Virus record (IMG/VR): IMGVR_UViG_3300029309_000097
Location: 1-40,600 of that record
DNA length: 40,600 nt
Direction: 5' to 3' (one strand)
Origin: a virus
This document shows, piece by piece, positions 1-40,600 of this stretch. A model generated the notes under the pieces. The model did no database searches and was not told where the DNA came from. It worked only from the letters and a program-made list of their open reading frames with translations. Numbering within the stretch: position 1 is the stretch's first letter; each line of letters starts with the position of its first letter. Made by a program: the position numbers and the translations under genes.

Positions 1-87
1 ACTGGATTCTTAGGTGATGTTGATGAGATGCTTACTGTTACCTACGAATTTATATTTAAGTCTTTGTTTTATCTGCGGATTAAATAG
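1..87 (+). CDS. C-terminal end of an unidentified ORF, possibly integrase
   Basis: Frame 1 is open from the first base of the window to a TAG stop at 85-87, giving the last 28 residues of a protein whose start lies outside the window. The peptide ends FYLRIK. I do not recognise a family motif. Its stop codon touches the tRNA-derived candidate attP that starts at base 87. Temperate phages often carry the tyrosine-integrase gene directly beside attP, so an integrase is the natural guess, but the guess rests on position alone. It could also be a chance open frame. Confidence 0.3.
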   Translation, partial: TGFLGDVDEMLTVTYEFIFKSLFYLRIK

Positions 88-144
88 ACTTAAAATCCAG
101 AGACTGTAATGGTCGTGCCGGTTCGAGTCCGGCCACTCGCACCA
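87..144 (+). other. attP: Candidate attP: 3' half of a tRNA-Leu(UAA) gene
   Basis: The stretch reads as a tRNA from the anticodon loop to the CCA end. Loop CTTAAAA holds anticodon TAA (91-93), and TCCAG follows as the 3' anticodon strand. Next come a long class II variable arm of the leucine type, a perfect T arm (GCCGG 117-121, loop TTCGAGT, CCGGC 129-133), the acceptor strand CACTCGC (134-140), discriminator A and an encoded CCA (142-144). The 5' half is missing: the bases before 87 do not pair with TCCAG or CACTCGC. A truncated tRNA keeping only its 3' half is the usual form of a phage attP that restores the host tRNA gene on integration. A tRNA-Leu match has been described for cyanophage P-SSP7. 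The lone fragment is not a functional tRNA gene. Confidence 0.8.
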
Positions 145-200: not shown

Positions 201-2594
201 ATGAGCAAGCAGGAAGAAGTCGAGAAGGAAATGCTTGATCGGGGCTATGCTTCAAGGCAAAGAAAAGTCCAGTTAAATATTCAAAAGGGTAGAGAATCAG
301 AGAATGATTATGCCAGAAGCATGATCGCTGCTGGTCTTGCACCTTTTTCTAAATCCATACAGCAATTTATTAATAGGGCTTGGAGGGGGAAACCAGGACC
401 AAAGGCTATTGCTGCTGTTAAGTTGTCAGAATTTCCTGATGTAGATGTCGTAGCCTTTATTGCTTTCAAGGCAATCATTGATGGTGCATCACAGGGTAAT
501 ACAGCTACGCAGATAGCTATTCAAACAGGTCATTTGTTGGAAGATGAAATGCGGTTCAGTGTCTTTGAAGAGGAAGACAAAAGACATTTTACTGCTGTTA
601 AAAAACATATTACCGATACAACTCATCCAAGATATAGACGCAATATGATGATAGGCCACATGAGAAATCAGGGGTTTGTTTTTAAGAACTGGGCTAAGGA
701 AGAGAAGCTACGCATAGGTACGAAACTATTGGATCTATTAATCAATACGTTGGGTATGGTTAAGGTTGTATCTAAAAGAATGGGTAGGACTACACAAAAC
801 TATGTGGAGTTTACGGAAAGTATTAACGAATGGATGAAGAGACAGAGGGTCAATAGGTTTGCAAGCTATCCAATATATATGCCTTGTGTAGAACAACCTA
901 TTGAATGGTTAAGCACTACTGATGGCGGTTTTCATACCAAGAGACTGCAACATATTAAAGCTATTAAGAGCAGGGATCTCTCTTACTTGCAAGAAGTATC
1001 AGAAAAGAAACCAACAGCGTTTTTTCAAGCATTAAATTGTCTACAGAATACCCAATGGGAAGTAAATACAAGTGTTCTTGAAATTGCTCAAAGCTGTTGG
1101 GATAGAAGTATAGAAGTGGGGTGTTTGATAGATGCTGAAACATTAACACTACCACCGAAACCATTTGATATTGATACCAATGAGGATGCAAGACTGAAGT
1201 GGAGAAAGGCAGCTAGTTTGATCCATGATCAAAATGCACACGATAGGATGAGGAGGTTTCAATGTCTGACTCTGCTTGATACAGCCCTTTATTACAAAGA
1301 TGCTCCTTTCTATCATGTATGGCAAGCAGATTTTACAGGTAGGATTTATCCAGTGGCTGCTGTTTTCAATCCACAGGGTAATGATTTATCCAGAGCCTTA
1401 CATAGATTTCATAATGGTGCAGCTATTAAGAATGAGACAGCTAAGAATTGGTTAGGTATAGCAGGTGCTAATAACTGGGGTCTTAGTAAAAGTAGTTATG
1501 AGGAAAGAATTGAATGGGCCAATACTGAAGGCTTTGCTTTGGCTGATCAGGTGGCTACTAATCCAGAAGCAACTGTCAGTATATGGAGCAAGGCAGATGA
1601 ACCATTTCAGTTTGTGGCCTGGTGTCTTGAGTGGTTTGAACTACAACAGCAAGGCTATGGGTATATATCAAAACATCCTGTCCTGTTGGACGGCACTAAT
1701 AATGGGTATCAACACTTTGCTGCCATGACCTGTGATCAAGACCTTGCAGCTAGGGTAAATCTTATTAAGTCTGATGAAGTACAGGATCTATATGATGAAG
1801 TAAGGGCAGAACTACTGACAGAGTTAGCTGATAGTGAAGACCTGTTAGCTGTTGAATGGTTTCATAATAAAGAAGTTATAACAAGAAAGCTGGTTAAAAA
1901 ACCAGTAATGGTTATTCCATATAGTGGTACGTTATTTGGTATTACAAAAGCAATCAGAGAATATTTATATAAACATGATGTAGATCTACCTTGGGAGAAA
2001 GATAGCTTTGAACATAATTATTTTCTAGCCAGAAAAATTGTTCAGACTGTGAAGAAAGTATGTCCAAAGTCATCAATCATTATGAAATATTTAACAGACA
2101 TTGCTAAATGTTATGGTAATGAACATAAAACAATGAAGTGGAATACACCCTCTAAGTTTTATGTTAATCAGAATTATTATTTACAAAATAGTAAACAAAT
2201 AAAGACTAAAATAGGCACTAGCACTGTAAGATTGTCACTTAATGAAGAGACTGACGAGGTGAATAGTAATAAATCTACAAGAAGTTTTGCTGCTAACTTT
2301 GTTCATAGTCTTGACGCTGCTAATGTACATTTAGCACTCGAGAAAAGTCATCAGAGGGGATTAAAAAACTTCACGACTATTCATGATTGTTTTGGATCTA
2401 CTGCTGCTGATATAGAAGAATTTATTTCCTGTGTAAAACAATCCTTTGTCGAAATGTACACGTCCAATGTATTAGATGATCTATACGGTCAGTCTGTTAT
2501 CCAGTTGGACAAACCACAAAAACTACCGACACCACCAGATTTAGGAGACTTTAATGTCTGTGAAGTGTTAGACGCACTATATGTGTTCAGTTAG
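201..2594 (+). CDS. Single-subunit T7-like RNA polymerase (left copy)
   Basis: DNA-directed RNA polymerase of the T7 gp1 family, 797 residues against 883 in T7. It transcribes the middle and late phage genes from phage-specific promoters. Catalytic landmarks are all present. The DFTGRIYP segment matches the T7 DFRGRVY segment. Motif A has Asp497 in DGTNNGYQHF (T7 Asp537). Motif B has Arg562, Lys566 and Tyr574 with the T7 spacing of Arg627, Lys631 and Tyr639. Motif C has His728-Asp729 in IHDCFG (T7 His811-Asp812). The start has an AGGAG ribosome-binding site at 191-195. This copy sits directly behind the candidate attP, while the copy at 38053 follows the early operon. The two differ at about 25 residues, all within the first 316, and are identical afterwards. 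Confidence 0.97.
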   Translation: MSKQEEVEKEMLDRGYASRQRKVQLNIQKGRESENDYARSMIAAGLAPFSKSIQQFINRAWRGKPGPKAIAAVKLSEFPDVDVVAFIAFKAIIDGASQGNTATQIAIQTGHLLEDEMRFSVFEEEDKRHFTAVKKHITDTTHPRYRRNMMIGHMRNQGFVFKNWAKEEKLRIGTKLLDLLINTLGMVKVVSKRMGRTTQNYVEFTESINEWMKRQRVNRFASYPIYMPCVEQPIEWLSTTDGGFHTKRLQHIKAIKSRDLSYLQEVSEKKPTAFFQALNCLQNTQWEVNTSVLEIAQSCWDRSIEVGCLIDAETLTLPPKPFDIDTNEDARLKWRKAASLIHDQNAHDRMRRFQCLTLLDTALYYKDAPFYHVWQADFTGRIYPVAAVFNPQGNDLSRALHRFHNGAAIKNETAKNWLGIAGANNWGLSKSSYEERIEWANTEGFALADQVATNPEATVSIWSKADEPFQFVAWCLEWFELQQQGYGYISKHPVLLDGTNNGYQHFAAMTCDQDLAARVNLIKSDEVQDLYDEVRAELLTELADSEDLLAVEWFHNKEVITRKLVKKPVMVIPYSGTLFGITKAIREYLYKHDVDLPWEKDSFEHNYFLARKIVQTVKKVCPKSSIIMKYLTDIAKCYGNEHKTMKWNTPSKFYVNQNYYLQNSKQIKTKIGTSTVRLSLNEETDEVNSNKSTRSFAANFVHSLDAANVHLALEKSHQRGLKNFTTIHDCFGSTAADIEEFISCVKQSFVEMYTSNVLDDLYGQSVIQLDKPQKLPTPPDLGDFNVCEVLDALYVFS

Positions 2595-2748
2595 AAATAA
2601 AGGATGACAGGTGAAAAATGTACGATAATATCAAATTTACGTCCAACAAGGACGAATATAAAAGAAACTACAACAGAAATTTCCAAATGATTAAATCAGA
2701 AATTCTTAACATCACATCACCCGTATGTCTTTTTCAATTTGCTTGGTT
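1185..2748 (+). repeat. Identical overlap block, copy 1 (same as 39037-40600)
   Basis: From base 1185, just after a G/A difference at 1184 versus 39036, the sequence matches 39037-40600 at a constant offset of 37,852 up to the end of the window. No mismatch was found in the stretches I compared by eye. It covers the C-terminal two thirds of the RNA polymerase and the start of the ssDNA-binding gene. It most likely marks where a circular or terminally redundant genome closes on itself. Confidence 0.9.
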
Positions 2749-3310
2749 AGTTGAACCCGATACCAAGTTTGATGCTTCTGGTATATGGCAAGTTGAATGT
2801 CTTATAGATCCAGAAAAGTCACAGGACATTGAGGAACAACTTAATGGTTTGTTAGACAGATGGAAGTCACAACTTAAGATTGCTAACCCTAACAAAAAGT
2901 ACAAGCTTGCACCTTTGCCTTTTGGTTTTGAAGAGATAGATGGCAAGCCATACTTTAGAGTAAAGACCAAGATGAAAGGTGGTGGTATCAGGGCAGATGG
3001 TACGCAATGGAAACAAAGACCACCTGTTTTATTTAATGCTGATGGTTCTCCTATGTCAGAGGATCAGAAGGAGAAGGTAAACAAGTGTGGTCCAGGTACA
3101 ACTGGACAAGTCAATATGCGTTGCAGTGGTTGGGAAAATCCTAGCTTTGGTGTTGGTATTAAGATTCAACCAGAAGCTGTAATCATTCATAACCATGTCG
3201 AATACAATAAAACAGCACAAGGCTATGGCTTTGAAACAGAAGAAGCAACCCAAGAAGAAACTACCAAAGTCCAAGGCTTTGAAACAGTTGCAGCAGGGGA
3301 CGAATTTTAG
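2618..3310 (+). CDS. Single-stranded DNA-binding protein, T7 gp2.5-like
   Basis: 230 residues, T7 gp2.5 being 232. It is placed between RNA polymerase and endonuclease I, where gp2.5 lies in T7. The body fits an OB-fold SSB (ITSPVCLFQFAWL near residues 32-44, a basic GGGIRADGTQWK stretch in the middle). The tail is acidic and ends GDEF, the acidic C terminus with terminal Phe by which gp2.5 contacts helicase and polymerase. It should coat ssDNA during replication and recombination. The first ATG has AGGTG upstream. A later ATG at 2687 is possible because the N-terminal 23 residues are low in family-like features. The 3' end overlaps the endonuclease gene. Confidence 0.88.
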   Translation: MYDNIKFTSNKDEYKRNYNRNFQMIKSEILNITSPVCLFQFAWLVEPDTKFDASGIWQVECLIDPEKSQDIEEQLNGLLDRWKSQLKIANPNKKYKLAPLPFGFEEIDGKPYFRVKTKMKGGGIRADGTQWKQRPPVLFNADGSPMSEDQKEKVNKCGPGTTGQVNMRCSGWENPSFGVGIKIQPEAVIIHNHVEYNKTAQGYGFETEEATQEETTKVQGFETVAAGDEF

Positions 3311-3689
3311 AAGTAAGTTTGAAGCTGGTATTGCAGCAACATTACAAGCAGACAAAGTTCAATTCTCTTATGAAACACTCGATATTGACTACCAAATCAG
3401 TTGCACTTATAAGCCTGATTTCATCCTTGACAACGGCATCTGTATTGAAACTAAGGGCTTCTTCTCAAAAGAGGACCGCAGAAAACATATTGCGATTAAG
3501 ACGCAAAGACCCGACTTAGATATACGATTCTGTTTTCAGAATAGTAAAACAAAATTGAGTCGTGGCAAAAGAAGTATAACCTATGGTGCTTGGGCTACCA
3601 AGCATGGGTTTCTCTGGAGTCATGGCTCTATTCCCAGAGACTGGTATGAAGAACAAGAGCAATTATGTAAGGAAGACAAGCTGCCCTGA
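3195..3689 (+). CDS. Endonuclease I / Holliday-junction resolvase, T7 gp3-like
   Basis: T7 endonuclease I family, which cleaves branched DNA and host DNA. The four active-site residues are present: Glu43 in RSKFEAG, Asp74 in YKPDFIL, and Glu84 and Lys86 in IETKGFF. The Asp-Glu-Lys spacing equals T7 Asp55-Glu65-Lys67. The C-terminal half retains DIRFCFQNSKTKL and a YGAWATKHG stretch also typical of the family. Length is 164 residues from the first ATG, or 154 from ATG 3225; T7 gp3 has 149. The start is uncertain because the N terminus is a Lys-rich extension encoded within the end of the SSB gene (overlap 86-116 bases). It follows SSB and overlaps the primase-helicase gene, as in a compact replication operon. 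Confidence 0.92.
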   Translation: MSNTIKQHKAMALKQKKQPKKKLPKSKALKQLQQGTNFRSKFEAGIAATLQADKVQFSYETLDIDYQISCTYKPDFILDNGICIETKGFFSKEDRRKHIAIKTQRPDLDIRFCFQNSKTKLSRGKRSITYGAWATKHGFLWSHGSIPRDWYEEQEQLCKEDKLP

Positions 3690-5247
3690 GTGTGGCAGTA
3701 AGGATAATATGGCTATTTATGATGACGGACATGGTTTCTGTTTCGGCTGTAGCTATACCTATCACCCACCAAAAGAAAGACCTAGAAAAAGTTTTATTAA
3801 GACTGTGAAGAAACCATTACTGAAATTTGTTACACCAAAAGCATTACCAAAACGTGGCATAACACAGGAGACATGTGAACTATTTAATTATGGGATTACA
3901 GAACATAATGGAGTACCTGTGCAAGTGGCAACCTATGAAGATAATTTAGGAAGACCATCTGCACAACATATACGCTATCAAAATAAAAGATTTATATGGT
4001 TGGGTGATGTCAGCAACCTACAGCTATGGGGTCAGAAGCTATGGAGACAGCATACTACAGGTAAGATGTTTGTCACTATCACTGAAGGTGAGATAGATTG
4101 CATGTCTGTTTCACAGGCTCAGGGTAACAAGTTTCCTGTGGTTAGTTTGCCTTCTGGTTCACAGTCAGCTAATAAATATATAGCAGCAAATTTAAAATGG
4201 TTATCTCAATTTGTACGCATAGTTCTGTGCTTCGATAGTGACGAGCCTGGTATGGTTGCTGCCGAAAAAGCAATTAAAATCTTACCTCCTGGCAAGGCAG
4301 CTATATGTAGATTACCAAGAAAGGATGCTAATGAAATGCTCCTCAATGGAGAAGGGGAAGAACTTAGAGATCTCTTATTCAGGGCAACACCTGTTAGACC
4401 AGATGGAATACTTAATGCCAGTAACCTCTGGCAGGAACTGACAAAGAAAGGTACCAACAGTATCTGTCCTTTTCCATTTCCACAACTTGATACCTTTACC
4501 AAAGGTTTTCATAAACAACAGATGGTATGTATAGCTGCTGGTAGTGGCACTGGTAAATCAACTATATGTAGAGAACTGGCTCATCACTTTATTAAGAATG
4601 ATCTGACTGTTGGATATATAGCTTTGGAGGAATCAGTACAGAGAACTATGCAAGGTATTCTTGGTGTTGAGGTAAACAAACCATTGCATCTTGAAGATAA
4701 TATTGAACATGAAAGCTTGAAGCAGTCGTTTGATAAGTTGTTCGGTACAGGAAAACTATTCTTATATGATCACTTTGGTTCTATTGATCCCGATAGATTA
4801 GTTGAACAGATACAGTATCTTGCCACAGCAGAGGGTGTAGATGTTGTTATCTTGGATCATCTAACAATAGTTGTGTCAGGAATCTCTGACTTAGATGAAA
4901 GAAGAGCCTTGGATGTGGTCTGTACCAAGCTCAGGCAGGTGGTTGAATCCACTGGTATAGGTTTAATCATTGTCTCCCATTTGCGTAGACCAGAAGGTAA
5001 AGGGCATGAGGAAGGTAATAAGGTAAGTCTTAATCATCTGCGGTCTTCTCATTCAATCGCACAGCTATCAGATCTTGTGGTTGCATGTGAAAGAAACCAG
5101 CAGGGGGATGTAGCTGAAAGGGCTGAACTACAGTTACGTGTATTGAAGAATAGACATACAGGAATGACAGGAGCAATAGACAAATTATTGTATGACGATA
5201 AAACAGGAAGGTTGGTTCTTCCTTTGGACACCTACTTCGGAGACTGA
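3646..5247 (+). CDS. Primase-helicase, T7 gp4-like
   Basis: Bifunctional primase and replicative DnaB-type helicase. Numbering from ATG 3646, a four-Cys zinc-binding site (Cys13, 16, 32, 35) lies at the N terminus and matches the template-reading domain of gp4A. A TOPRIM domain follows (EGEIDCMS, then CFDSDEPG). The helicase has the Walker A loop GSGTGKST (299-306) and the Walker B-type ILDHLTIVV. Length is 533 residues; T7 gp4A has 566. An upstream in-frame ATG at 3583 would add 21 residues inside the endonuclease gene and looks less likely. The stop codon overlaps the start of the exonuclease gene by one base. T7 has its DNA polymerase gene between these two; here there is none, so this helicase must work with a polymerase encoded elsewhere, presumably the host's. 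Confidence 0.95.
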   Translation: MKNKSNYVRKTSCPECGSKDNMAIYDDGHGFCFGCSYTYHPPKERPRKSFIKTVKKPLLKFVTPKALPKRGITQETCELFNYGITEHNGVPVQVATYEDNLGRPSAQHIRYQNKRFIWLGDVSNLQLWGQKLWRQHTTGKMFVTITEGEIDCMSVSQAQGNKFPVVSLPSGSQSANKYIAANLKWLSQFVRIVLCFDSDEPGMVAAEKAIKILPPGKAAICRLPRKDANEMLLNGEGEELRDLLFRATPVRPDGILNASNLWQELTKKGTNSICPFPFPQLDTFTKGFHKQQMVCIAAGSGTGKSTICRELAHHFIKNDLTVGYIALEESVQRTMQGILGVEVNKPLHLEDNIEHESLKQSFDKLFGTGKLFLYDHFGSIDPDRLVEQIQYLATAEGVDVVILDHLTIVVSGISDLDERRALDVVCTKLRQVVESTGIGLIIVSHLRRPEGKGHEEGNKVSLNHLRSSHSIAQLSDLVVACERNQQGDVAERAELQLRVLKNRHTGMTGAIDKLLYDDKTGRLVLPLDTYFGD

Positions 5248-5978
5248 TGACTTTACTGATTGATGCTGATTGGCTGATCTATTCTTCGTGCTGTGCTTGT
5301 GAACAGGACATTAAATGGGATGACAACTTACATACATTGCATGCTGATGAAAGAGATGTACATGAAATGGTAGATGGCAGAATATCTCATTATCAAAATA
5401 TTGCTGAAGGTGATAAAGATGTTGTCATGTGTTACACAGAATATCCAACATTCAGACATACGATTTACCCAGAATATAAAGCCAATAGAAAACATAAAAG
5501 AAAACCATTAGGGCTAGGAAAGATTATCGAACAGACTAAGGAACGGTATCAATCTGAAAGCTACTCAGGGTTAGAGGGTGATGATGTTATGGCTGTGCTT
5601 GCCACCAGTAAGAAATATCCTGATCCTATTATTGTGTCAGTTGATAAGGACATGAGATCTGTACCCTGCACACTACTAGCAGGTGATGACATGGAACTTA
5701 TAACCAGACGTAAGGCTGATAGACATTGGATGATACAGGCTCTTACAGGTGACTCTACTGATAACTACTTCGGTATAGATAAAGTAGGACCAGTAACAGC
5801 AGAAAAGATACTTGGTGAAGCTAAGACACTTGAACAGATGTGGGAGAAGGTAGTGGCTGCGTATGAGAAAAAGAAATATAACTTCGCTGATGCTGTTCTT
5901 AATGCACAACTGGCAAGGATATTGAGAGATGGTGACTTTGATTTTCAGACAGGTGAAGTATCTTTGTGGACTCCATAA
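5247..5978 (+). CDS. 5'-3' exonuclease, T7 gp6-like (FEN/PIN fold)
   Basis: 243 residues; T7 gp6 has 300. Flap-endonuclease family signatures are in order: an N-terminal LLIDADWL with the first metal-binding Asp, YPEYKANR, GLEGDDVMA with the acidic pair, SVDKDM, and LTGDSTDNYFGIDKVGP, the helix-three-turn-helix DNA-binding element. The enzyme should remove RNA primers and degrade host DNA to nucleotides. Its ATG overlaps the stop of the primase-helicase gene by one base, so translation is probably coupled. It is the last gene before a strong terminator and appears to close the replication operon. Confidence 0.93.
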   Translation: MTLLIDADWLIYSSCCACEQDIKWDDNLHTLHADERDVHEMVDGRISHYQNIAEGDKDVVMCYTEYPTFRHTIYPEYKANRKHKRKPLGLGKIIEQTKERYQSESYSGLEGDDVMAVLATSKKYPDPIIVSVDKDMRSVPCTLLAGDDMELITRRKADRHWMIQALTGDSTDNYFGIDKVGPVTAEKILGEAKTLEQMWEKVVAAYEKKKYNFADAVLNAQLARILRDGDFDFQTGEVSLWTP

Positions 5979-6119: not shown

Positions 6120-6323
6120 ATGTCATCTGAAAAGCTTCCAGTGATTACAGATGAATTGATCTTTGCCTTAGATCAAATCTTTCCTAACCGTCATCCTGAC
6201 TTGTCTTTATCTGATAGAGAGATATGGTACAAAGCAGGGCAACGGTATGTTGTTGATTACCTGATTGAACAACAGGCAAGACAAAAAGAAACCATGCTTA
6301 CTGAATCAGTACTGGAGAATTAG
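6120..6323 (+). CDS. Small conserved-looking protein upstream of the portal
   Basis: 67 residues, no signal peptide or membrane segment. The body has an amphipathic, helical look (LIFALDQIFPNRHPDLSLSD, then REIWYKAGQRYVVDYL). Similar short proteins occur upstream of the portal gene in marine T7-like phages, to my recollection, without assigned function. It is the first gene after the 5981 terminator and promoter region. It is followed two bases later by the next small gene, so it heads the structural operon. Confidence 0.75.
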   Translation: MSSEKLPVITDELIFALDQIFPNRHPDLSLSDREIWYKAGQRYVVDYLIEQQARQKETMLTESVLEN

Positions 6324-29303: not shown

Positions 29304-29953
29304 TGGAAATCCCAGAAATAAAAATACCGCAGATAGATATACCAGTACATAATCCATATCAAGTATTAAACGTTCCTCTACCATCGTTAAAGCTACCTGG
29401 ATGTGTAAAGCATCATAGAGATGCTTCTCCAAAGAATACAGCCTTATATAATGATGATCCGACAGGAACTGTAATTAACTGTCCTTATGGTTCAATGCCT
29501 TCTTTTGAACCAATGTTATATGACAGAAGAAGAATACAGATAGTAGAAATCAAACAAGAATCACAACAGAAAAGACAAGAACCAACACCAAAAGTAAAAA
29601 CTGAAAAACCTAAATTACCAGAAAAAAAGAAAGAAGAATTTTTTATAAAATGTCCTGGTGACAAAGATCAAAGGGTTGGAGATTTTCGTAACGATAAAAA
29701 ACTAGAACGTGTCATAGGTCATAAATTATCAGATGATAAAAGTGAGTGCATAACACTCTATGAAGACACAAATTTCATCGACCAGTATCTACCTTCAGCT
29801 AAAGCTGCTACTACTGCTGCTGGTATTGCTTTGGTCGCTGCTACTACTCCATTACTTATTAATGCTGTAAAACCATTAGTAAAAAACTTAGTGAAAAAAC
29901 TTACTTCTCGGAAGTCAAAGAATGACGATGAGGTAAAACCTGACCCTTCTTAG
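29303..29953 (+). CDS. Pro/Lys-rich protein with C-terminal membrane segment
   Basis: 216 residues. The N terminus is a repeating Ile/Pro pattern (EIPEIKIPQIDIPVHNPY), then LPGCVKHHRDASPKNTALYN and NCPYGSMPSFEPM with paired Cys, then a Lys/Glu/Pro-rich linker and a second Cys pair (IKCPGD, SECITLYED). A hydrophobic Ala/Thr/Leu segment (about 168-190) is followed by a basic tail. The Cys-HRD-KNT pattern is one I have seen only in cyanophage accessory genes of unknown function. It overlaps the convergent minus-strand ORF by about 53 bases. Confidence 0.78.
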   Translation: MEIPEIKIPQIDIPVHNPYQVLNVPLPSLKLPGCVKHHRDASPKNTALYNDDPTGTVINCPYGSMPSFEPMLYDRRRIQIVEIKQESQQKRQEPTPKVKTEKPKLPEKKKEEFFIKCPGDKDQRVGDFRNDKKLERVIGHKLSDDKSECITLYEDTNFIDQYLPSAKAATTAAGIALVAATTPLLINAVKPLVKNLVKKLTSRKSKNDDEVKPDPS

Positions 29954-30710
29954 GTACAACTTCTATATCCTTACAAATATTGTAGTAAGGACTATCTTTT
30001 GCAAACTGAATACCAGCTAACTTCTTCTCACCACAATGACGTAATCTTGCAAAATGCCAGTCTAACTCTAAGTTTTTAAGCTTTTGTTTCTGTATATTTA
30101 TCTGTGTCTGTGCTGCATCTTTACATTGCCTGCCTAATTCTCTATCCAAAGGAATAGAAAAGTTTAAAGTGATTCCTGTACCAAGTGCATAACTATCCTT
30201 ATTAGTACCAGAATAGTTCTGTTGATAATATAAAATATCTCCTGGGTTATCAGGTGTGCCATCTCCTATAGCATTACCATCATCATCAAAATCACCAACT
30301 ATATCAGTCTGATCATATACAGGTGTCTCATACCTATGATCAAAAGGTTTTCTATAGTTACTATTGAAAGTAGAAAAAGGAGTTATGGTCATCATTGCAC
30401 CCTGACAAACTATATTTCCTCCATATTGATTAGTATGAAAACTACCATTGTTTACATTCCAGTTCTGATTAGTGACTGATCCACTGTTGCTTTGGCTTAC
30501 AGCATTGGCTAAAACCTTTACAGGACTAAATATTATTGCGAGAACACAGAGGTAGTTGTAGTAACGGATTCCGTTGTTATATCTCTTGTTATTGACGTTA
30601 CGTTCTGTAGACCTGGACCAGAATATGTCTCTGTGAATTGAAAGGCATTTCCTGATGTCGGGTTTGTTAATGTCCAATTTGGTTTTGTTGTCATATCTGC
30701 TCCTGTCCAT
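29901..30710 (-). CDS. Secreted or envelope protein, start codon unclear
   Basis: Minus-strand frame of 269 residues from ATG 30710, but the family-like part begins about residue 53. There LCVLAIIFSPVKVLANAVSQ reads as a signal peptide with cleavage after VLA. No ATG, GTG or TTG lies in frame close to it. The N-terminal 50 residues overlap the neighbouring gene in another frame and look like non-coding translation. The mature part has a GGNIVCQGAMMTITPFSTFN stretch, an acidic DDDGNAIGDGTPDNPGDILY stretch, and a C-terminal helix-Cys region (LDWHFARLRHCGEKKLAGIQ, SPYYNICKDIEV). I recall this combination from cyanophage proteins of unknown function. Start possibilities are a rare codon, a -1 frameshift from the upstream gene, or a sequence error. 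Confidence 0.7.
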   Translation of the reverse strand: MDRSRYDNKTKLDINKPDIRKCLSIHRDIFWSRSTERNVNNKRYNNGIRYYNYLCVLAIIFSPVKVLANAVSQSNSGSVTNQNWNVNNGSFHTNQYGGNIVCQGAMMTITPFSTFNSNYRKPFDHRYETPVYDQTDIVGDFDDDGNAIGDGTPDNPGDILYYQQNYSGTNKDSYALGTGITLNFSIPLDRELGRQCKDAAQTQINIQKQKLKNLELDWHFARLRHCGEKKLAGIQFAKDSPYYNICKDIEVVPKKGQVLPHRHSLTSEK

Positions 30711-30961
30711 GTATAAGATTGACCTCCTACCGTACCTGTGACTTGAGTTGCATCGGGTGACATACTTCCGCCATCATGTTCAATACCTGTTCCAGTAACA
30801 GTATATTCATAACCTGTCTTATAATCTTTGCTTGTAATTGTTTCTGAAATTGTAGTAACGGTATTAGTAGTGCTTTGCATATTTCCTTGTACAAAGTTAG
30901 GTACAATATTCGCATTAACTGGTAAAACATATAAACAAAACAGTAGTAAAATCCTTTTCAT
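30533..30961 (-). CDS. Secreted Thr/Ser/Gly-rich protein
   Basis: 142 residues with a clear signal peptide (MKRILLLFCLYVLPVNA, cleavage after VNA). The mature part is Thr/Ser/Gly-rich and beta-like, with YTVTGTGIEHDGG and VGGQSYTWTG. It resembles the upstream neighbour (YSVSGTGVNTTDGT, VGG), so the two look like paralogues. Export to the periplasm or outer surface of the infected cell is implied. Similar proteins exist in cyanophages and cyanobacteria, from memory. It begins six bases after the stop of that neighbour and its end overlaps the next frame. Confidence 0.78.
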   Translation of the reverse strand: MKRILLLFCLYVLPVNANIVPNFVQGNMQSTTNTVTTISETITSKDYKTGYEYTVTGTGIEHDGGSMSPDATQVTGTVGGQSYTWTGADMTTKPNWTLTNPTSGNAFQFTETYSGPGLQNVTSITRDITTESVTTTTSVFSQ

Positions 30962-30967
30962 AACTCA

Positions 30968-31453
30968 TTAGTCTACCGTTACAGAAGTTACATATTGTCC
31001 TGTAGCTGTAGTACCTGATGATCCTGCTGTAATAGTAATAACATGATTATCTACAGTACCAGCTAAATTCGTTGCAGTACCTCCAGAAGTGCTTGTAAGA
31101 TCACCAAAGGCACTTACCTCACCAGTGGTTAAAGAAGTTCCTATAGTATCACCTGTCGTATGTGAGACTGTATAACTGAAGCTCTCTCCATCTGTTAGCT
31201 GACTTGCAGTAATTGGTGTATAAGCATTTACACCATTAGTCGCTGCACCTAATCCACCAACACTACCTGCTGTAGTACCATCTGTAGTGTTTACACCTGT
31301 ACCAGAAACACTATATGAGTTACCTATACGATCAGCAGTTGTTCCTGGTGCTGCCACTTCAAGTTTTACTGAAGATGTTATTGTGGAAGTAATATCTGCA
31401 TAACATGCAGTGGGTGTAAAAAAGAAAAGAAATGGCAGTAATTTTTTAATCAT
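30968..31453 (-). CDS. Secreted Thr/Ser/Gly-rich protein (paralogue)
   Basis: 161 residues. Signal peptide MIKKLLPFLFFFTPTACYA with a Cys near the end; the spacing is not a convincing lipobox. The mature sequence is almost entirely Thr/Ser/Gly/Ala/Val, with SSVKLEVAAPGTTADRIGNS, then YSVSGTGVNTTDGTTAGSVG. No Cys is present after the signal. Such composition suggests an exported beta-structured or surface protein. The start overlaps the upstream stop as ATGA, so the minus-strand genes form one operon. Confidence 0.8.
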   Translation of the reverse strand: MIKKLLPFLFFFTPTACYADITSTITSSVKLEVAAPGTTADRIGNSYSVSGTGVNTTDGTTAGSVGGLGAATNGVNAYTPITASQLTDGESFSYTVSHTTGDTIGTSLTTGEVSAFGDLTSTSGGTATNLAGTVDNHVITITAGSSGTTATGQYVTSVTVD

Positions 31454-31722
31454 GTGTTGGAAATACCCACTTTTGAATCTTTGTTATCTACTATATTAAT
31501 CTTACCTTTCATCTTTTTATTCTCAGTAGCCTTTTTAACATTTAGCCCATAGTTACTCATGACAGCCGAAAGCAGTCCGGCAGCGAAAGTAGTATCAATC
31601 TGTCTGACAGGATTAGGATTAAAATATGACCAAGAAATAACTCCAAGTGACCAAGCAAGAATCACCAACTGCACTGCGTTTCCAATGATTCCCAGTCCTT
31701 GTTTTTCTTCTTGTTCTTCCAT
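31450..31722 (-). CDS. Small membrane protein, holin candidate
   Basis: 90 residues. A charged N terminus (MEEQEEKQGLG) precedes a hydrophobic segment (IIGNAVQLVILAWSLGVISW, about 12-31) and a second weaker one (TFAAGLLSAVMSNYGLNV). The C terminus is Lys-rich and hydrophilic. The two-helix layout, small size and charged tail fit a class II holin. It is the first gene of the minus-strand operon that encodes the secreted proteins. I see no endolysin beside it, so the holin call is tentative. Confidence 0.72.
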   Translation of the reverse strand: MEEQEEKQGLGIIGNAVQLVILAWSLGVISWSYFNPNPVRQIDTTFAAGLLSAVMSNYGLNVKKATENKKMKGKINIVDNKDSKVGISNT

Positions 31723-32554: not shown

Positions 32555-32782
32555 ATGGAAAAAGCAAATAAATTAGAATTATTAGAACACCTTCATACAG
32601 TTCTTATACAAGAATTGTTAGACAAGGTAAAAAGTGGAGCAGCAAAACCTGGTGATTTAAACGTAGCAAGACAACTGTTGAAGGATAATGGTATTGAATG
32701 TATCCCAACAGAGAAGAGTCCTATGGAAGATCTCATGTCAAACCTTCCAGACCTTGATGTAATACCTGCTTTAGAAAGATAG
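32555..32782 (+). CDS. Terminase small subunit, T7 gp18-like
   Basis: 75 residues; T7 gp18 has 89. LELLEHLHTVLIQELLDKVK, then SGAAKPGDLNVARQLLKDNG and a PLEDL-like acidic end (PMEDLMSNLPDLDVIP). The gp18-type DNA maturase A pattern of a helix followed by A-x-x-x-D-L-x-x-A-R-x-L-L-K-D-x-x-I is visible. It recognises the concatemer for packaging together with the large subunit. The methyltransferase-like gene starts one base after its stop. Confidence 0.9.
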   Translation: MEKANKLELLEHLHTVLIQELLDKVKSGAAKPGDLNVARQLLKDNGIECIPTEKSPMEDLMSNLPDLDVIPALER

Positions 32783-32783
32783 T

Positions 32784-33416
32784 TTGAAAGTTCTTGTAGC
32801 CTGTGAATACTCTGGCAGAGTGCGAGATGCCTTTATATCACAGGGGCATGATGCAATAAGCTGTGATCTACTGCCTACAGAGGTGGAAGGACCACACTAT
32901 CAGGGAGATGTAAGAGACATCCTCTATGATGGTTTCGATCTGATGATTGCACATCCTTCTTGTCAACATCTGGCAGTATCAGGTGCAAAGCATTTCTGGA
33001 GAAAAGAAAAAGAACAGAAAGAATCTCTTGATTTTGTCAGAACACTTATGAACTGTAATATTCCAAGATGGTGTATAGAAAACCCTGTAAGTGTGATTGG
33101 ATCAAAGATAAGACCTGCTGACCAGATAATTCAACCCTATGAACATGGAGATCCTTTTCAGAAATCAACCTGTCTGTGGTTAAAGAACTTACCTCTGTTA
33201 AAACCAACAAAAATAGTTAATAAAGGTGAGTTTTATGTATCTCCAAGTGGTAAAAAAATGCCTGATTGGTTCAGTAAGAATAAATCATGGAAGGTGCGTA
33301 GTACCACGTTTCAAGGTATAGCAAACGCATTTGCTTCTCAGTTTGGTAATGAAAATAATTTACCAGTACCAGTAGAACAATTATCTCTATTTGAACAATA
33401 TGCAACCGCTTCCTGA
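32784..33416 (+). CDS. DNA cytosine methyltransferase-like protein
   Basis: 210 residues starting at TTG 32784, directly behind the terminase small subunit. The N-terminal VLVACEYSGRVRDAFISQGH is an AdoMet-binding start, followed by a CDLL acidic step, DLMIAHPSCQHLAVSGA in place of the PC motif, and WCIENPVSVI (the ENV-like motif). These order like C5-cytosine methyltransferases. The PPC motif is HPSC, the target-recognition half is missing and the protein is short. Many phages carry this shortened form. It could modify phage DNA before packaging, or have lost activity. It is wedged between the two terminase genes and overlaps the large subunit start. Confidence 0.8.
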   Translation: MKVLVACEYSGRVRDAFISQGHDAISCDLLPTEVEGPHYQGDVRDILYDGFDLMIAHPSCQHLAVSGAKHFWRKEKEQKESLDFVRTLMNCNIPRWCIENPVSVIGSKIRPADQIIQPYEHGDPFQKSTCLWLKNLPLLKPTKIVNKGEFYVSPSGKKMPDWFSKNKSWKVRSTTFQGIANAFASQFGNENNLPVPVEQLSLFEQYATAS

Positions 33417-35121
33417 GAAACTACAAGACTTTAGATACTTTCTAATCATAACGTGGCGTCATCTTAACCTACCTGACCCTACACCAGTTCAATTAGACAT
33501 TGCTGAGTATTTACAGCATGGACCTCGTAGAAAGATCATACAGGCGTTCAGAGGAGTGGGTAAGAGTTGGATTACTTCTACCTATGTCGTATGGAAACTA
33601 CGAATGAATCCACAACTGAAGTTTCTTGTAGTCTCCGCAAGTAAAGACAGAGCAGACAACTTCAGTACATTCACTATGAGGTTGATCAATGAGATGCCAA
33701 TATTAGCTCCACTGCGTCCAGAAGACTCTCAAAGAAACTCTAAGATAAGTTTTGATGTTGGGCCTGCATCTGCTGATCATGCCCCTTCTGTTAAGTCTCA
33801 GGGTGTCTTAGGACAGATGGCTGGTAGTAGAGCAGATGAAGTAATTGCTGATGATGTGGAAGTACCAAATAACAGCTTTACTCAACCAATGAGAGACAAG
33901 TTAAGTGAAGCTGTAAAAGAATTTGATGCCATACTGAAACCAAGCGGTAAAATTACCTTTCTAGGAACACCACAAACAGAACAATCTTTATATCTAACAC
34001 TTGAAGAAAGAGGATATACCACACGTATATGGACTGCACGTTATCCAGAACTAAAAAACAACTATGGAGACAGACTTGCTCCTAAGTTAGCTCAGAGGCT
34101 ATCAGAAGAGCTTGTAAAGCCTAAAGATCCTGTTGACCCTGATAGGTTCTCATCAATAGATCTGATGGAACGTGAAGCCTCCTATGGACGTTCTGGGTTT
34201 AGTTTGCAGTTCATGCTTGATACATCTCTATCAGACCAAGACCGTTACCCTCTAAAACTATCAGACCTAATAATTTCATCAGTAAACCCAGACCATGCAC
34301 CAGAAAAGGTTATATGGTCTTCCTCTCCCGAGTACGTCATCAAAGAATTACCCTGTGTAGGCTTTAATGGAGACCACTTCTACAGACCTGCACAACAATT
34401 CGGTGATTGGATTGAATATACAGGCTCTGTAATGTTCATTGACCCCTCTGGTAAGGGTAGAGATGCTACTGGTTACGCTGTAGTAAAGATGTTAAACGGT
34501 AATCTATACGTCCCAGACGCAGGTGGTCTTAACGGTGGATACTCAGACGCTGTTTTAACAACACTATCTAAAATAGCTAAGACAAATAAAGTTAATACCA
34601 TACTCGTTGAGTCAAATATGGGTGGTGGTATGTTTGCTGAACTACTTAAACCCTTTCTTCTCCGTTATCATCCCTGTGAAGTACAAGACGTACGTAACAA
34701 TAAGACCAAAGAACTAAGGATAATAGATACCCTTGAACCTGTAATGAACTCTCACAGGCTTATATTCGACAGAAAGGTAGTAGAAAAAGACTATAGATCC
34801 AATCCTAACGAAGCTCCAGAACGTAAATTAAAACTTCAACTCTTCTATCAGATGTCTCGCATAACAAAACACAGAGGTTCTCTTGTACACGATGACATCC
34901 TAGATGCTCTATCAGGGGCAGTTGCCTACTGGACTGAGTACATGAACCAGGATGAAGACCGTAATATCAAATCCAGAAGAGATGAATTACTTGCCATTCA
35001 CCTCGATAACTGGGGTTCTTCTATTAACAATTCTGTTACACAAACAGCACTAGGACTAACACCTGCACAGATAAGAAATTCTAATACCTCCTCCGATGGA
35101 TTTATTAACAACACTTATTAG
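33400..35121 (+). CDS. Terminase large subunit, T7 gp19-like
   Basis: 573 residues from ATG 33400 (a TTG at 33391 would give 576); T7 gp19 has 586. ATPase domain: Walker A in AFRGVGKSW (Lys55) and Walker B-type acidic pair in EVIADDVE (about 151-152). C-terminal RNase H-like nuclease: FIDPSGKGRDATGYA with Asp348, and HDDILDALSGAVAYW with Asp498-Asp499. It pumps DNA into the procapsid and cuts concatemers at the terminal repeats. It overlaps the methyltransferase-like gene by 17 bases and is followed by the long non-coding region that should hold its cutting site. Confidence 0.95.
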   Translation: MQPLPEKLQDFRYFLIITWRHLNLPDPTPVQLDIAEYLQHGPRRKIIQAFRGVGKSWITSTYVVWKLRMNPQLKFLVVSASKDRADNFSTFTMRLINEMPILAPLRPEDSQRNSKISFDVGPASADHAPSVKSQGVLGQMAGSRADEVIADDVEVPNNSFTQPMRDKLSEAVKEFDAILKPSGKITFLGTPQTEQSLYLTLEERGYTTRIWTARYPELKNNYGDRLAPKLAQRLSEELVKPKDPVDPDRFSSIDLMEREASYGRSGFSLQFMLDTSLSDQDRYPLKLSDLIISSVNPDHAPEKVIWSSSPEYVIKELPCVGFNGDHFYRPAQQFGDWIEYTGSVMFIDPSGKGRDATGYAVVKMLNGNLYVPDAGGLNGGYSDAVLTTLSKIAKTNKVNTILVESNMGGGMFAELLKPFLLRYHPCEVQDVRNNKTKELRIIDTLEPVMNSHRLIFDRKVVEKDYRSNPNEAPERKLKLQLFYQMSRITKHRGSLVHDDILDALSGAVAYWTEYMNQDEDRNIKSRRDELLAIHLDNWGSSINNSVTQTALGLTPAQIRNSNTSSDGFINNTY

Positions 35122-35787: not shown

Positions 35788-36183
35788 ATGGAATCTTTAA
35801 AGCAAGATGTTATTTCTTATATGATCTCTCAATTAGAGGATCAAGTAGGGCTAGATAATGATGTATCAGATTTACACCATTATTTACTCAATGAAGATTA
35901 TTTCATTATTGGAACTTACCAAGCTAAACAATGGCTAAGTTCTTATGTCTTTGATGTTATCGAAACAATTAGAGAATATGAGCAATCAAACTTTGGTGAA
36001 GTCTCAACAGATTTTTCCGATCCTGAGAAAGTGGCTAATATGTACGCTTATATCTTGGGTGAAGAAATATTATCTGAGTCTGATATTTATCAACAAATAC
36101 AGTTTGATAAGGACATATTAGAAGAAGATGATATTAAAAACCTTATAGAGGATCTTAAAGAGAATCTACTGGTTAAGTCTTAG
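35788..36183 (+). CDS. Acidic early protein (131 aa)
   Basis: 131 residues, acidic, no membrane segment. The middle has VIETIREYEQSNFGEVSTDF, then SDPEKVANMYAYILGEEIL, a pattern I recall from small early proteins of cyanophages. It is the first gene behind the gene-free region, so it should be among the first to be expressed. It ends before a hairpin at 36189. Function unknown; host-takeover roles are common for genes in this place. Confidence 0.8.
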   Translation: MESLKQDVISYMISQLEDQVGLDNDVSDLHHYLLNEDYFIIGTYQAKQWLSSYVFDVIETIREYEQSNFGEVSTDFSDPEKVANMYAYILGEEILSESDIYQQIQFDKDILEEDDIKNLIEDLKENLLVKS

Positions 36184-37510: not shown

Positions 37511-37680
37511 GTGATTATCCGTACAGTCTTAATGCCATTGCCAGTCATCTAAAAGATTTATCTTTGGAGTTATCTAAGTTATTAGATATTAGCCATGATG
37601 ACGCATGGGAAATGTGCATACAAAAACTAGATGATAAGTTTTTAACAATGGATAAGGAGACTAATGATTCAATGTCCTAA
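37507..37680 (+). CDS. 57-residue early protein
   Basis: The start at 37507 is chosen over an upstream in-frame ATG at 37453 because it makes an ATGA overlap like its neighbours. MSDYPYSLNAIASHLKDLSL, then ELSKLLDISHDDAWEMCIQK and an acidic end. Helical, soluble, no family recognised. Overlaps the next gene by 17 bases. Confidence 0.65.
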   Translation: MSDYPYSLNAIASHLKDLSLELSKLLDISHDDAWEMCIQKLDDKFLTMDKETNDSMS

Positions 37681-37939
37681 GTGCGGAAGCAATACTATTG
37701 CTTATGGTCAGACAAGAGACCGACCTAACGCTAATTATGTATGGAGATCTCGTACGTGTAAAAATCCGCAGTGCCGTAAAACTTTCAGCACAAGAGAGTA
37801 CACGTTAGAAGAACTTGCTAAGTTGATTGATGAAGGTGGGAACTCTGTAGTGGATCTTCGCAATCAATGTGATGATCTACTGGCAGACCTTGCCGAACTT
37901 ATAACCCAATACAAAACATCTGATGCCAAAAGTAATTAA
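37664..37939 (+). CDS. Zinc-ribbon early protein (NrdR/Ogr-like N terminus)
   Basis: 91 residues. The N terminus has CPKCGSNTIAYGQTRDRPNA, then RSRTCKNPQCRKTFSTREYT, a C-x2-C and C-x4-C zinc ribbon. The layout is similar to the NrdR DNA-binding ribbon and to Ogr/Delta-type phage activators. The rest is a helical segment (LEELAKLIDEGGNSVVDLRN). The ATP-cone of NrdR is absent. It may bind DNA or RNA polymerase as a small regulator. It overlaps both neighbours. Confidence 0.8.
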   Translation: MIQCPKCGSNTIAYGQTRDRPNANYVWRSRTCKNPQCRKTFSTREYTLEELAKLIDEGGNSVVDLRNQCDDLLADLAELITQYKTSDAKSN

Positions 37940-38060
37940 CTTCAACAAGTATAAATACGAACGAAACAAGGTAATAGATGAGAGGATAGCTAACGCGAAA
38001 CTGAGGATTTTTGAATTGGAATGTCTTATAGAAGCATGGAGACTGTCAAAGCATGAGTGA
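37923..38060 (+). CDS. 45-residue early protein overlapping RNA polymerase
   Basis: ATG 37923 lies within the end of the zinc-ribbon gene, and its stop lies eight bases into the RNA polymerase gene (ATG 38053). MPKVINFNKYKYERNKVIDE, then a charged helix. Continuous tiling between its neighbours supports a real gene. No family recognised. Confidence 0.6.
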   Translation: MPKVINFNKYKYERNKVIDERIANAKLRIFELECLIEAWRLSKHE

Positions 38061-40446
38061 ACAGGTAAAAATCGAACAAAAAATGCTTGATCGGGGCTAT
38101 GCTTCAAGACAGAGAAAGATCCAGAGGTGTATTGACAAAGGAAGAGAATCAGAAACAGATTATGCACGTAACATGATTGCTGCTGGTCTTGCACCTTTAT
38201 CAAAAGCAATACAGCAATTTATTGATAGGTCTTGGAGAGGTAAACCAGGGCCAAGGGCTATTGCTGCTGTTAAGTTGTCAGAGTTTCCTGATGTAGATGT
38301 CGTAGCTTTTATTGCTTTCAAGGCAATTATTGATGGTACATCACAGGGTAAAACAGCTACACAGATAGCTATGCAGACAGGGCATTTGTTAGAAGATGAA
38401 ATGCGGTTCAGTGTCTTTGAAGAAGAGGATAAACGACATTTCACTGCGGTTAAAAAACATATAACAGATACAACACACCCACGTTATAGACGCAATATGA
38501 TGATAGGTCACATGAATAATAGAGGGTTTGTTTTCAAGAGATGGGCAGAGGAGGAAAAACTACGCATAGGTACGAAACTATTAGATCTTTTAATCAATAC
38601 TTTGGGTATGGTTAAGGTTGTATCTAAAAGAATGGGTAGGACTACACAAAACTATGTGGAGTTTACTGAAAGTATTAACGAATGGATGAAGAGACAGAGG
38701 GTGAATAGGTTTGCAAGCTATCCAATCTATATGCCCTGTGTAGAACAACCTATTGAATGGTTAAGCACTACTGATGGTGGTTTTCATACCAAGAGACTGC
38801 AACATATCAAAGCTATCAAGAGCAGGGATCTCTCTTACTTGCAAGAAGTATCAGAAAAGAAACCAACAGCGTTTTTTCAAGCATTAAATTGTTTACAGAA
38901 TACGCAATGGGAAGTGAATACAAGTGTTCTTGAAATTGCTCAAAGCTGTTGGGATAGAAGTATAGAAGTGGGGTGTCTGATAGATGCTGAAACATTACCA
39001 CTGCCACCTAAACCATTTGATATTGATACCAATGAAGATGCAAGACTGAAGTGGAGAAAGGCAGCTAGTTTGATCCATGATCAAAATGCACACGATAGGA
39101 TGAGGAGGTTTCAATGTCTGACTCTGCTTGATACAGCCCTTTATTACAAAGATGCTCCTTTCTATCATGTATGGCAAGCAGATTTTACAGGTAGGATTTA
39201 TCCAGTGGCTGCTGTTTTCAATCCACAGGGTAATGATTTATCCAGAGCCTTACATAGATTTCATAATGGTGCAGCTATTAAGAATGAGACAGCTAAGAAT
39301 TGGTTAGGTATAGCAGGTGCTAATAACTGGGGTCTTAGTAAAAGTAGTTATGAGGAAAGAATTGAATGGGCCAATACTGAAGGCTTTGCTTTGGCTGATC
39401 AGGTGGCTACTAATCCAGAAGCAACTGTCAGTATATGGAGCAAGGCAGATGAACCATTTCAGTTTGTGGCCTGGTGTCTTGAGTGGTTTGAACTACAACA
39501 GCAAGGCTATGGGTATATATCAAAACATCCTGTCCTGTTGGACGGCACTAATAATGGGTATCAACACTTTGCTGCCATGACCTGTGATCAAGACCTTGCA
39601 GCTAGGGTAAATCTTATTAAGTCTGATGAAGTACAGGATCTATATGATGAAGTAAGGGCAGAACTACTGACAGAGTTAGCTGATAGTGAAGACCTGTTAG
39701 CTGTTGAATGGTTTCATAATAAAGAAGTTATAACAAGAAAGCTGGTTAAAAAACCAGTAATGGTTATTCCATATAGTGGTACGTTATTTGGTATTACAAA
39801 AGCAATCAGAGAATATTTATATAAACATGATGTAGATCTACCTTGGGAGAAAGATAGCTTTGAACATAATTATTTTCTAGCCAGAAAAATTGTTCAGACT
39901 GTGAAGAAAGTATGTCCAAAGTCATCAATCATTATGAAATATTTAACAGACATTGCTAAATGTTATGGTAATGAACATAAAACAATGAAGTGGAATACAC
40001 CCTCTAAGTTTTATGTTAATCAGAATTATTATTTACAAAATAGTAAACAAATAAAGACTAAAATAGGCACTAGCACTGTAAGATTGTCACTTAATGAAGA
40101 GACTGACGAGGTGAATAGTAATAAATCTACAAGAAGTTTTGCTGCTAACTTTGTTCATAGTCTTGACGCTGCTAATGTACATTTAGCACTCGAGAAAAGT
40201 CATCAGAGGGGATTAAAAAACTTCACGACTATTCATGATTGTTTTGGATCTACTGCTGCTGATATAGAAGAATTTATTTCCTGTGTAAAACAATCCTTTG
40301 TCGAAATGTACACGTCCAATGTATTAGATGATCTATACGGTCAGTCTGTTATCCAGTTGGACAAACCACAAAAACTACCGACACCACCAGATTTAGGAGA
40401 CTTTAATGTCTGTGAAGTGTTAGACGCACTATATGTGTTCAGTTAG
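38053..40446 (+). CDS. Single-subunit T7-like RNA polymerase (right copy)
   Basis: 797 residues and identical to the copy at 201-2594 from residue 317 on, including all catalytic motifs (Asp497, Arg562, Lys566, Tyr574, His728, Asp729). About 25 substitutions lie in residues 3-316, densest in the first 70; the last is Thr316 to Pro. Its context is a compact early operon with eight bases of overlap to the gene before. No tRNA-like sequence lies upstream. It most likely represents the same locus from a related strain, with the contig closing on itself, rather than a second polymerase in one genome. Confidence 0.95.
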   Translation: MSEQVKIEQKMLDRGYASRQRKIQRCIDKGRESETDYARNMIAAGLAPLSKAIQQFIDRSWRGKPGPRAIAAVKLSEFPDVDVVAFIAFKAIIDGTSQGKTATQIAMQTGHLLEDEMRFSVFEEEDKRHFTAVKKHITDTTHPRYRRNMMIGHMNNRGFVFKRWAEEEKLRIGTKLLDLLINTLGMVKVVSKRMGRTTQNYVEFTESINEWMKRQRVNRFASYPIYMPCVEQPIEWLSTTDGGFHTKRLQHIKAIKSRDLSYLQEVSEKKPTAFFQALNCLQNTQWEVNTSVLEIAQSCWDRSIEVGCLIDAETLPLPPKPFDIDTNEDARLKWRKAASLIHDQNAHDRMRRFQCLTLLDTALYYKDAPFYHVWQADFTGRIYPVAAVFNPQGNDLSRALHRFHNGAAIKNETAKNWLGIAGANNWGLSKSSYEERIEWANTEGFALADQVATNPEATVSIWSKADEPFQFVAWCLEWFELQQQGYGYISKHPVLLDGTNNGYQHFAAMTCDQDLAARVNLIKSDEVQDLYDEVRAELLTELADSEDLLAVEWFHNKEVITRKLVKKPVMVIPYSGTLFGITKAIREYLYKHDVDLPWEKDSFEHNYFLARKIVQTVKKVCPKSSIIMKYLTDIAKCYGNEHKTMKWNTPSKFYVNQNYYLQNSKQIKTKIGTSTVRLSLNEETDEVNSNKSTRSFAANFVHSLDAANVHLALEKSHQRGLKNFTTIHDCFGSTAADIEEFISCVKQSFVEMYTSNVLDDLYGQSVIQLDKPQKLPTPPDLGDFNVCEVLDALYVFS

Positions 40447-40600
40447 AAATAAAGGATGACAGGTGAAAAATGTACGATAATATCAAATTTACGTCCAACA
40501 AGGACGAATATAAAAGAAACTACAACAGAAATTTCCAAATGATTAAATCAGAAATTCTTAACATCACATCACCCGTATGTCTTTTTCAATTTGCTTGGTT
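39037..40600 (+). repeat. Identical overlap block, copy 2 (same as 1185-2748)
   Basis: Matches 1185-2748 at an offset of 37,852 without a visible difference, through the polymerase C terminus, the intergenic AGGATGACAGGTG stretch and the first 131 bases of the SSB gene, until the window ends. It marks closure of the genome unit. Confidence 0.9.
40470..40600 (+). CDS. Single-stranded DNA-binding protein, 5' part (cut by window end)
   Basis: The first 43 codons of the gp2.5-like SSB gene, the same as at 2618-2748. Truncated only because the window ends here. Confidence 0.85.
   Translation, partial: MYDNIKFTSNKDEYKRNYNRNFQMIKSEILNITSPVCLFQFAW

Follow-up and report, generated by a model that had tools for sequence, protein, structure and literature searches.

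How does a phage built like T7 copy its DNA when the gene for its own DNA polymerase is missing? T7 is the textbook minimal replisome, with four proteins of which one is its own polymerase. The question is raised by a 40,600-base viral record (IMG/VR record IMGVR_UViG_3300029309_000097, analysed over its full length and called the window below), in which the original prediction had recognised a T7-like replication operon without a DNA polymerase gene, in a unit of about 37.9 kb. The window is a single pass round a circle of 37,852 bp plus an overlap with itself. Our reading, which we regard as probable, is that it is the complete circle of a T7-like phage (Autographiviridae) from a clade that lost its family-A polymerase, and that a host polymerase, most likely DNA polymerase III (Pol III), would copy the DNA with the phage primase-helicase (gp4) and single-stranded DNA-binding protein (SSB).

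The features of the window are given in Table 1. The predicted set of SSB, endonuclease I, gp4 and exonuclease was borne out by matches to Pfam and PHROGs, and with the RNA polymerase (RNAP) in front the gene order is that of T7. Endonuclease I keeps the catalytic acidic residues and the lysine when aligned with T7 gp3, and alignments of gp4 show that its zinc, Toprim and Walker A motifs are retained. The gp4 start at 3646 seems the sensible choice, its ATG being immediately 5' of the CPECG zinc motif. The gp4 stop codon (TGA, 5245-5247) and the exonuclease start codon (ATG, 5247-5249) have one base in common, as predicted, at the place where T7, P60, CRP-125, the pelagiphages and P-RSP2 have their DNA polymerase gene (identified by profile matches in P-RSP2, whose record gives no product names). 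Most relatives have the same overlap at this junction, or a spacing of -4 or 0, and the isolates P-SCSP1 and P-SCSP2 have the junction of the window; among loci near the window the majority of the junctions have a one-base or four-base overlap. Three loci have a gene for a 232-aa Mom-like DNA modification protein in the polymerase slot (L050, 2153-2848; L080, 3058-3753; L081, 10426-11121).

Table 1. Features of the window (positions in the 40,600-base record)
Feature	Position	Strand	Basis or remark
Probable last codons of integrase gene, integrase-positive strain variant	1..87	+	frame 1 reads ...LGDVDEMLTVTYEF...RIK*
tRNA-Leu(UAA) 3' half, probable attP core	87..144	+	sequence through CCA
Single-subunit T7-type RNA polymerase (variant 1)	201..2594	+	PF00940, E 3e-84
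gp2.5-like SSB, acidic C-terminal tail ...AAGDEF	2618..3310	+	phrog_112, E 1.7e-13
Endonuclease I (T7 gp3-like)	3195..3689	+	PF05367, E 2.7e-37
Primase-helicase (T7 gp4-like), ends ...LPLDTYFGD, no acidic Phe-ended tail	3646..5247 (alternative start 3583)	+	phrog_239, E 8.7e-167
gp4 stop/exonuclease start overlap, TGATG	5245..5249	+	direct reading; slot of the DNA polymerase gene in T7-like relatives
5'-3' exonuclease (T7 gp6-like)	5247..5978	+	PF02739/PF01367; phrog_107, E 2.9e-57
67-aa protein, common to polymerase-less and polymerase-bearing relatives	6120..6323	+	
Terminase small subunit	32555..32782	+	PF11123, E 7.3e-18
Putative DNA methyltransferase, C-terminal QLSLF	32784..33416	+	phrog_757 'DNA methyltransferase'
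Terminase large subunit	33391..35121	+	phrog_38, E 3.3e-109; 77.5% to P-SCSP2
NrdR-like zinc-ribbon ORF, directly upstream of RNAP in integrase-less allele	37664..37939	+	PF22811, E 3.6e-5
Repeat pass over RNAP and start of SSB gene	38053..40600	+	1,564 bp exact, circle closes

No DNA polymerase was found elsewhere in the window. PF00476 (DNA_pol_A) had no match there and matched ten control genomes, and PF07733 (DNA_pol3_alpha) and PF00136 (DNA_pol_B) also failed to match the window while matching their controls; PF03175 (DNA_pol_B_2) gave no match either, but neither did its controls, so this result says little. A T7-like PolA profile, made for this analysis from ten polymerases of that type, had no match in the window. 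It did match each of the 15 available genomes with a polymerase; five of these had contributed nothing to the profile, among them P-RSP2, ProddE and P-SSP7, whose split gene was matched in both halves. The open reading frames (ORFs) taken as genes, scanned with Pfam, PHROGs or both, matched no polymerase family, and the ORF of 1188 aa, scanned with PHROGs only, matched an internal virion protein. In 66 other records PF00476 was found only in one IMG relative (L117) and in P-SSP7, and polymerases of families B and C were absent from the 18 records searched. The predicted absence of a DNA polymerase gene from this T7-like phage is thereby confirmed at the level of sequence profiles.

An encoded polymerase could still be too diverged for profiles, which is the third possibility listed by Cai et al. 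2022 (PMC9860041); extreme divergence can escape such searches, and many small ORFs have no known function. However, every ORF of more than 270 aa is assigned (to virion, RNAP, gp4 or terminase), and the biggest early-region ORF without a known role, of 131 aa (35788-36183), is confined to the window among eight polymerase-less genomes. No gene, assigned or not, was found in all eight of these genomes and in none of seven polymerase-bearing ones, which argues both against a hidden common polymerase and against a common dedicated recruiter. We consider a disguised enzyme of this kind very unlikely. The 67-aa ORF after the exonuclease was rejected as a clade-specific recruiter since it occurs in polymerase-bearing phages too.

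The original prediction also allowed for a polymerase gene in a missing segment to the left, and the genome might equally be defective or mis-assembled, as the first 200 bp do not match the right end and two strain variants are joined in the record. Positions 201-2748 and 38053-40600 are 96.3% identical, with 95 mismatches, all within 201-1184; 1185-2748 matches the right end exactly, and this self-overlap of 1,564 bp closes the circle, so that no left segment is missing. Positions 1-200 are unlike 37853-38052. The ends were therefore rejected as a plain repeat, the mismatches being confined to 201-1184 and the first 200 bases being different. The left end instead has the appearance of an integrase/att allele. 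In L011 the integrase match stops about 20 bases before the position equivalent to base 1 of the window, and 13 related loci have the same half-tRNA flanked by integrase and RNAP. Five loci (L011, L012, L016, L032 and L038) have the order zinc-ribbon ORF, integrase, half-tRNA, RNAP, and along that stretch there is no polymerase in L011, L012, L016 and L038. In L045, L048, L055 and L075, and at the right end of the window, the zinc-ribbon ORF is directly upstream of RNAP and the integrase is absent. The contig is best read as a fusion of an integrase-plus allele (left, 1-200) with an integrase-minus allele (right, 37940-38052), and neither allele has a polymerase. With the circle closed, integrase-positive relatives devoid of a polymerase, and the same gp4-exonuclease junction in most contigs and in P-SCSP1 and P-SCSP2, the missing-DNA explanation is refuted for this record, and we give it practically no weight.

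Both allele forms are present among the relatives, making the integration genes a presence/absence polymorphism. The 95 differences between the two RNAP copies (201-2594 and 38053-40446) are all in the first 980 bp or so of the gene, and this 5' part looks as if it had been exchanged through recombination with the integrase module. ARAGORN reported no tRNA in the window, because only the 3' half is present, and a repeat search of the window gave no obvious promoter-like family.

A polymerase-less marine cyanopodovirus lineage, mentioned in the original prediction, does exist: the MPP-C clade comprises 18 Prochlorococcus phages without a DNA polymerase, whose genomes of 37.3-37.9 kb lack auxiliary metabolic genes (Cai et al. 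2022, PMC9860041). GenBank places the P-SCSP phages in Autographiviridae despite the missing polymerase. The window shares the MPP-C genome traits, being T7-like, without an identifiable DNA polymerase and, at 37,852 bp, within that size range. As in MPP-C, auxiliary genes are lacking, in that no Pfam family for psbA, hli, mazG, rnr, talC or thyX was matched in the scanned window ORFs. Among named phages, those closest to it are P-SCSP2, MedDCM-OCT-S08-C159 and the P-SCSP1 phages. By these traits the window would be a further member of the published polymerase-less kind, on the P-SCSP2 side. That paper recognised no endonuclease (PMC9860041); in contrast, an unannotated endonuclease I ORF with its catalytic residues kept is present in P-SCSP2 (L001, OM416780) at 5185-5625. 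Prochlorococcus MED4 was the strain on which P-SCSP1 and P-SCSP2 were isolated and propagated (PMC9860041), a fact that counts against a co-infecting polymerase-bearing phage as the source of the enzyme; such helper dependence is compatible with the sequence, but we consider it most improbable given that both isolates are of the same clade.

The polymerase-less phages extend well beyond these isolates. IMG/VR was scanned with gp4, and the best 80 of 101 matches near the window, the best 80 of 238 near P-SCSP2 and the best 80 of 464 near L099 were considered; L117 was the sole polymerase carrier among the loci listed in the three scans. The L099 group is uncultured, has 48-64% GC and keeps the order RNAP-SSB-endonuclease-gp4-exonuclease-portal-scaffold-capsid-tail. 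No polymerase was found in the 15 larger records of this group that were searched whole, and no gp4 relative of more than 58% identity to it among 50,697 phage records. L213-L289 are a large high-GC (48-64%) polymerase-less T7-like group in which gp4 and exonuclease are separated by small inserts of various kinds, and some high-GC phages have integrases beside other half-tRNA att sites (L266, L275, L280 and L282).

In a gp4 tree of 43 rows all 28 polymerase-less sequences, the window included, fall on one side of a 100/100 branch, and the placement asked for by the original prediction is thus with the polymerase-free phages. An eight-gene tree also has all the polymerase-less phages on one branch (support 100), adjoining the roseophage and pelagiphage types and not P-SSP7 or P60. 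The trees indicate that these phages are one clade which extends to the uncultured high-GC (48-64%) phages. The window groups with P-SCSP2 and C159 in the eight-gene tree (100) and P-SCSP1a with high-GC uncultured phages, so adding these phages breaks the monophyly of the published MPP-C clade; with gp4 alone, the window, P-SCSP1 and P-SCSP2 are within one marine subclade. The rooting assumes the polymerase-bearing side as outgroup, and on that assumption the simplest history would be a single loss of the polymerase before the marine branches arose.

The tail of T7 gp4 is acidic, ends in Phe and docks the DNA polymerase (PMC12230644, PMC5997990). Such a tail was found in none of 225 polymerase-less helicases versus 12 of 14 polymerase-bearing ones, where it ends, for example, in DF in CRP-125, HTVC120P, HTVC031P and HTVC109P. 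The primase zinc cysteines, the Toprim acidic residues and the Walker A residues are invariant across the gp4 alignments. The SSB tail, [DEN]F, is present in all 191 complete polymerase-less SSBs. The window has the features by which the polymerase-less clade is defined here, i.e. no polymerase, a tailless gp4, the [DEN]F tail on SSB and its place on the branch. The lost docking tail supports a phage helicase that works with a host polymerase. New here, relative to the published work, are the wider clade, the loss of the helicase tail with retention of the SSB tail, and the finding that no gene common to the clade took the place of the polymerase.

The fold of single-subunit RNA polymerases is that of family A, and T7 RNAP accepts deoxynucleoside triphosphates (dNTPs) after a single Tyr-to-Phe substitution. 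On these grounds the phage RNAP might double as a DNA polymerase. However, 176 of 178 RNAPs from polymerase-less phages retain the dNTP-rejecting Tyr, and the same set shows no variation in the catalytic Asp and His-Asp motifs, so RNAP is not a DNA polymerase in disguise; the idea is in our view exceedingly doubtful.

No sliding-clamp motif is conserved in gp4, SSB or the exonuclease. The putative methyltransferase encoded at 32784-33416 ends ...PVPVEQLSLFEQYATAS, and its QLSLF is by sequence a perfect bacterial sliding-clamp-binding pentapeptide. It is kept in close homologues of the lineage of the window and in some other marine contigs, and weaker forms (QLSFL, QLDLI and QLQLI) occur in remoter contigs that have T7-like genes and in which no polymerase was seen. 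P-SSP7, Pasto and two IMG contigs, which are T7-like and have a polymerase, encode homologues without the QLSLF tail. The motif points weakly to a clamp-bearing fork, and hence to Pol III, as the gene is not clade-wide. Host DNA polymerase I (Pol I) could alternatively stand in for gp5: it belongs to the same polymerase family as T7 gp5 and comes first in the list of Cai et al. 2022, who left the source as Pol I, Pol III or a hidden enzyme (PMC9860041). The tail on which gp5 would dock is nevertheless gone from the phage helicase anyway, and the clamp motif favours, weakly, a clamp-bearing replicase. Host Pol I is also not known to have the T7-type thioredoxin-binding loop for tail docking. 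We therefore think Pol I rather unlikely.

Replication by host Pol III might then proceed as follows. Primers would come from transcripts of the phage RNAP and from the phage primase, and the gp4 ring would unwind the fork. Both strands would be made by a host polymerase, for which the clamp-bearing Pol III holoenzyme is the likeliest candidate. The gp2.5-like SSB, its tail kept, would cover single-stranded DNA, and it may offer the host polymerase the one contact that is left; recycling of host DNA and processing of primers would fall to endonuclease I and the exonuclease.

Several points weigh against this reading. The IMG/VR records are for the most part fragmentary, and near-copies are numerous among them. 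The gp4 of HTVC119P and HTVC200P ends HEEI, not Phe, although both phages have a polymerase, and 26 polymerase-less P-SCSP2-like helicases end ...VYEDFI, so the gp4 tail is not a strict marker. As the tail and the polymerase were lost on one branch, the association counts as a single evolutionary event and not as 225. The QLSLF protein is absent from P-SCSP1 and P-SCSP2 and so cannot be a general recruiter. Finally, synthesis by a host enzyme, the choice of Pol III over Pol I, and what recruits it are all inferred. The predicted cooperation of the phage helicase with the host replicase stands as the best reading, with both the use of a host enzyme and its identity conjectural.

A broader history can be proposed, to which we would give about even chances. 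A single polymerase loss, in an ancestor outside the marine cyanophages, would have founded a clade of many hosts (34-64% GC) with a rewired replisome, in which the helicase tail was shed, the SSB tail kept and synthesis passed to the clamp-bearing replicase of the host, while the DNA-modifying enzyme of one branch gained a clamp motif. MPP-C would be one marine part of it.

The original prediction placed the window among cyanopodoviruses. The genome traits and closest named relatives agree with that lineage, but the host implied by the name is unproven, because the clade holds high-GC phages, the nearest polymerase-bearing kin are roseophages and pelagiphages, and the att half differs from that of P-SSP7. 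From the half-tRNA of the window one would expect an anticodon stem CTGGA/TCCAG and an acceptor with CACTCGC at its end, and it differs in this from the GGGAGTG...CCGGA half-tRNA of P-SSP7, a phage of MED4. Among genome contigs the exact att 30-mer was found only in three unrelated genomes, Heliophilum, Tumebacillus and a Rhodospirillaceae metagenome-assembled genome, all with different variable arms, and a search at three mismatches had no match in 385 genomes of the class of the latter.

In its remaining genes the window has the traits of Autographiviridae (single-subunit RNA polymerase, T7-type gene order, portal, terminase and tail tube/nozzle proteins) but lacks the usual core trait of a family-A DNA polymerase between gp4 and exonuclease. 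Minus-strand genes are present at 29901-31722 in an otherwise plus-strand genome, and three of them (269, 142 and 90 aa) are also in P-SSP7 and P-RSP2.

A clade that keeps all the T7 replisome parts but the polymerase is a natural experiment on the parts that remain. The question left by MPP-C, i.e. Pol I, Pol III or a hidden enzyme, becomes testable with defined components, a tailless gp4 and a tailed SSB. The absence of the gene across hundreds of contigs, including high-GC ones, implies that surveys with DNA polymerase as the marker miss part of the T7-like phages, and not just in the lineage of the ocean surface for which this had been noted.

In lambda replication a phage helicase (or loader) directs host Pol III. 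The same strategy is known from SPP1 (as cited in PMC9860041) and would be the nearest functional parallel to the window, although no homology is claimed and those phages encode origin proteins, none of which was found in the window. MPP-A and MPP-B phages (P60, P-SSP7) have the T7-like architecture and cyanobacterial hosts, but have a polymerase and are farther off in the eight-gene tree. The roseophages and pelagiphages (CRP-125, HTVC109P and HTVC119P) are the nearest polymerase-bearing branch in that tree and have the same order round the fork genes, but their gp4 and exonuclease genes are separated by the gene for a DNA polymerase of about 565-595 aa. MedDCM-OCT-S08-C159 (GU943031, Jalkavirus, uncultured) is a 10.3-kb fragment whose SSB is 31% identical to that of the window, but it has gp4 and exonuclease without a polymerase between them, a major capsid protein of 91.6% and a portal of 79-89% identity. 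The MPP-C phages differ from the window in gp4 (just 56-62% identity), in RNAP (26-45%) and in internal virion and tail-fibre genes that are largely unlike, and the P-SCSP2 SSB was not found by plain tblastn; they nonetheless share the T7-like order, and P-SCSP2 resembles the window closely in its major capsid protein (93.6%), large terminase subunit (77.5%) and portal (82%).

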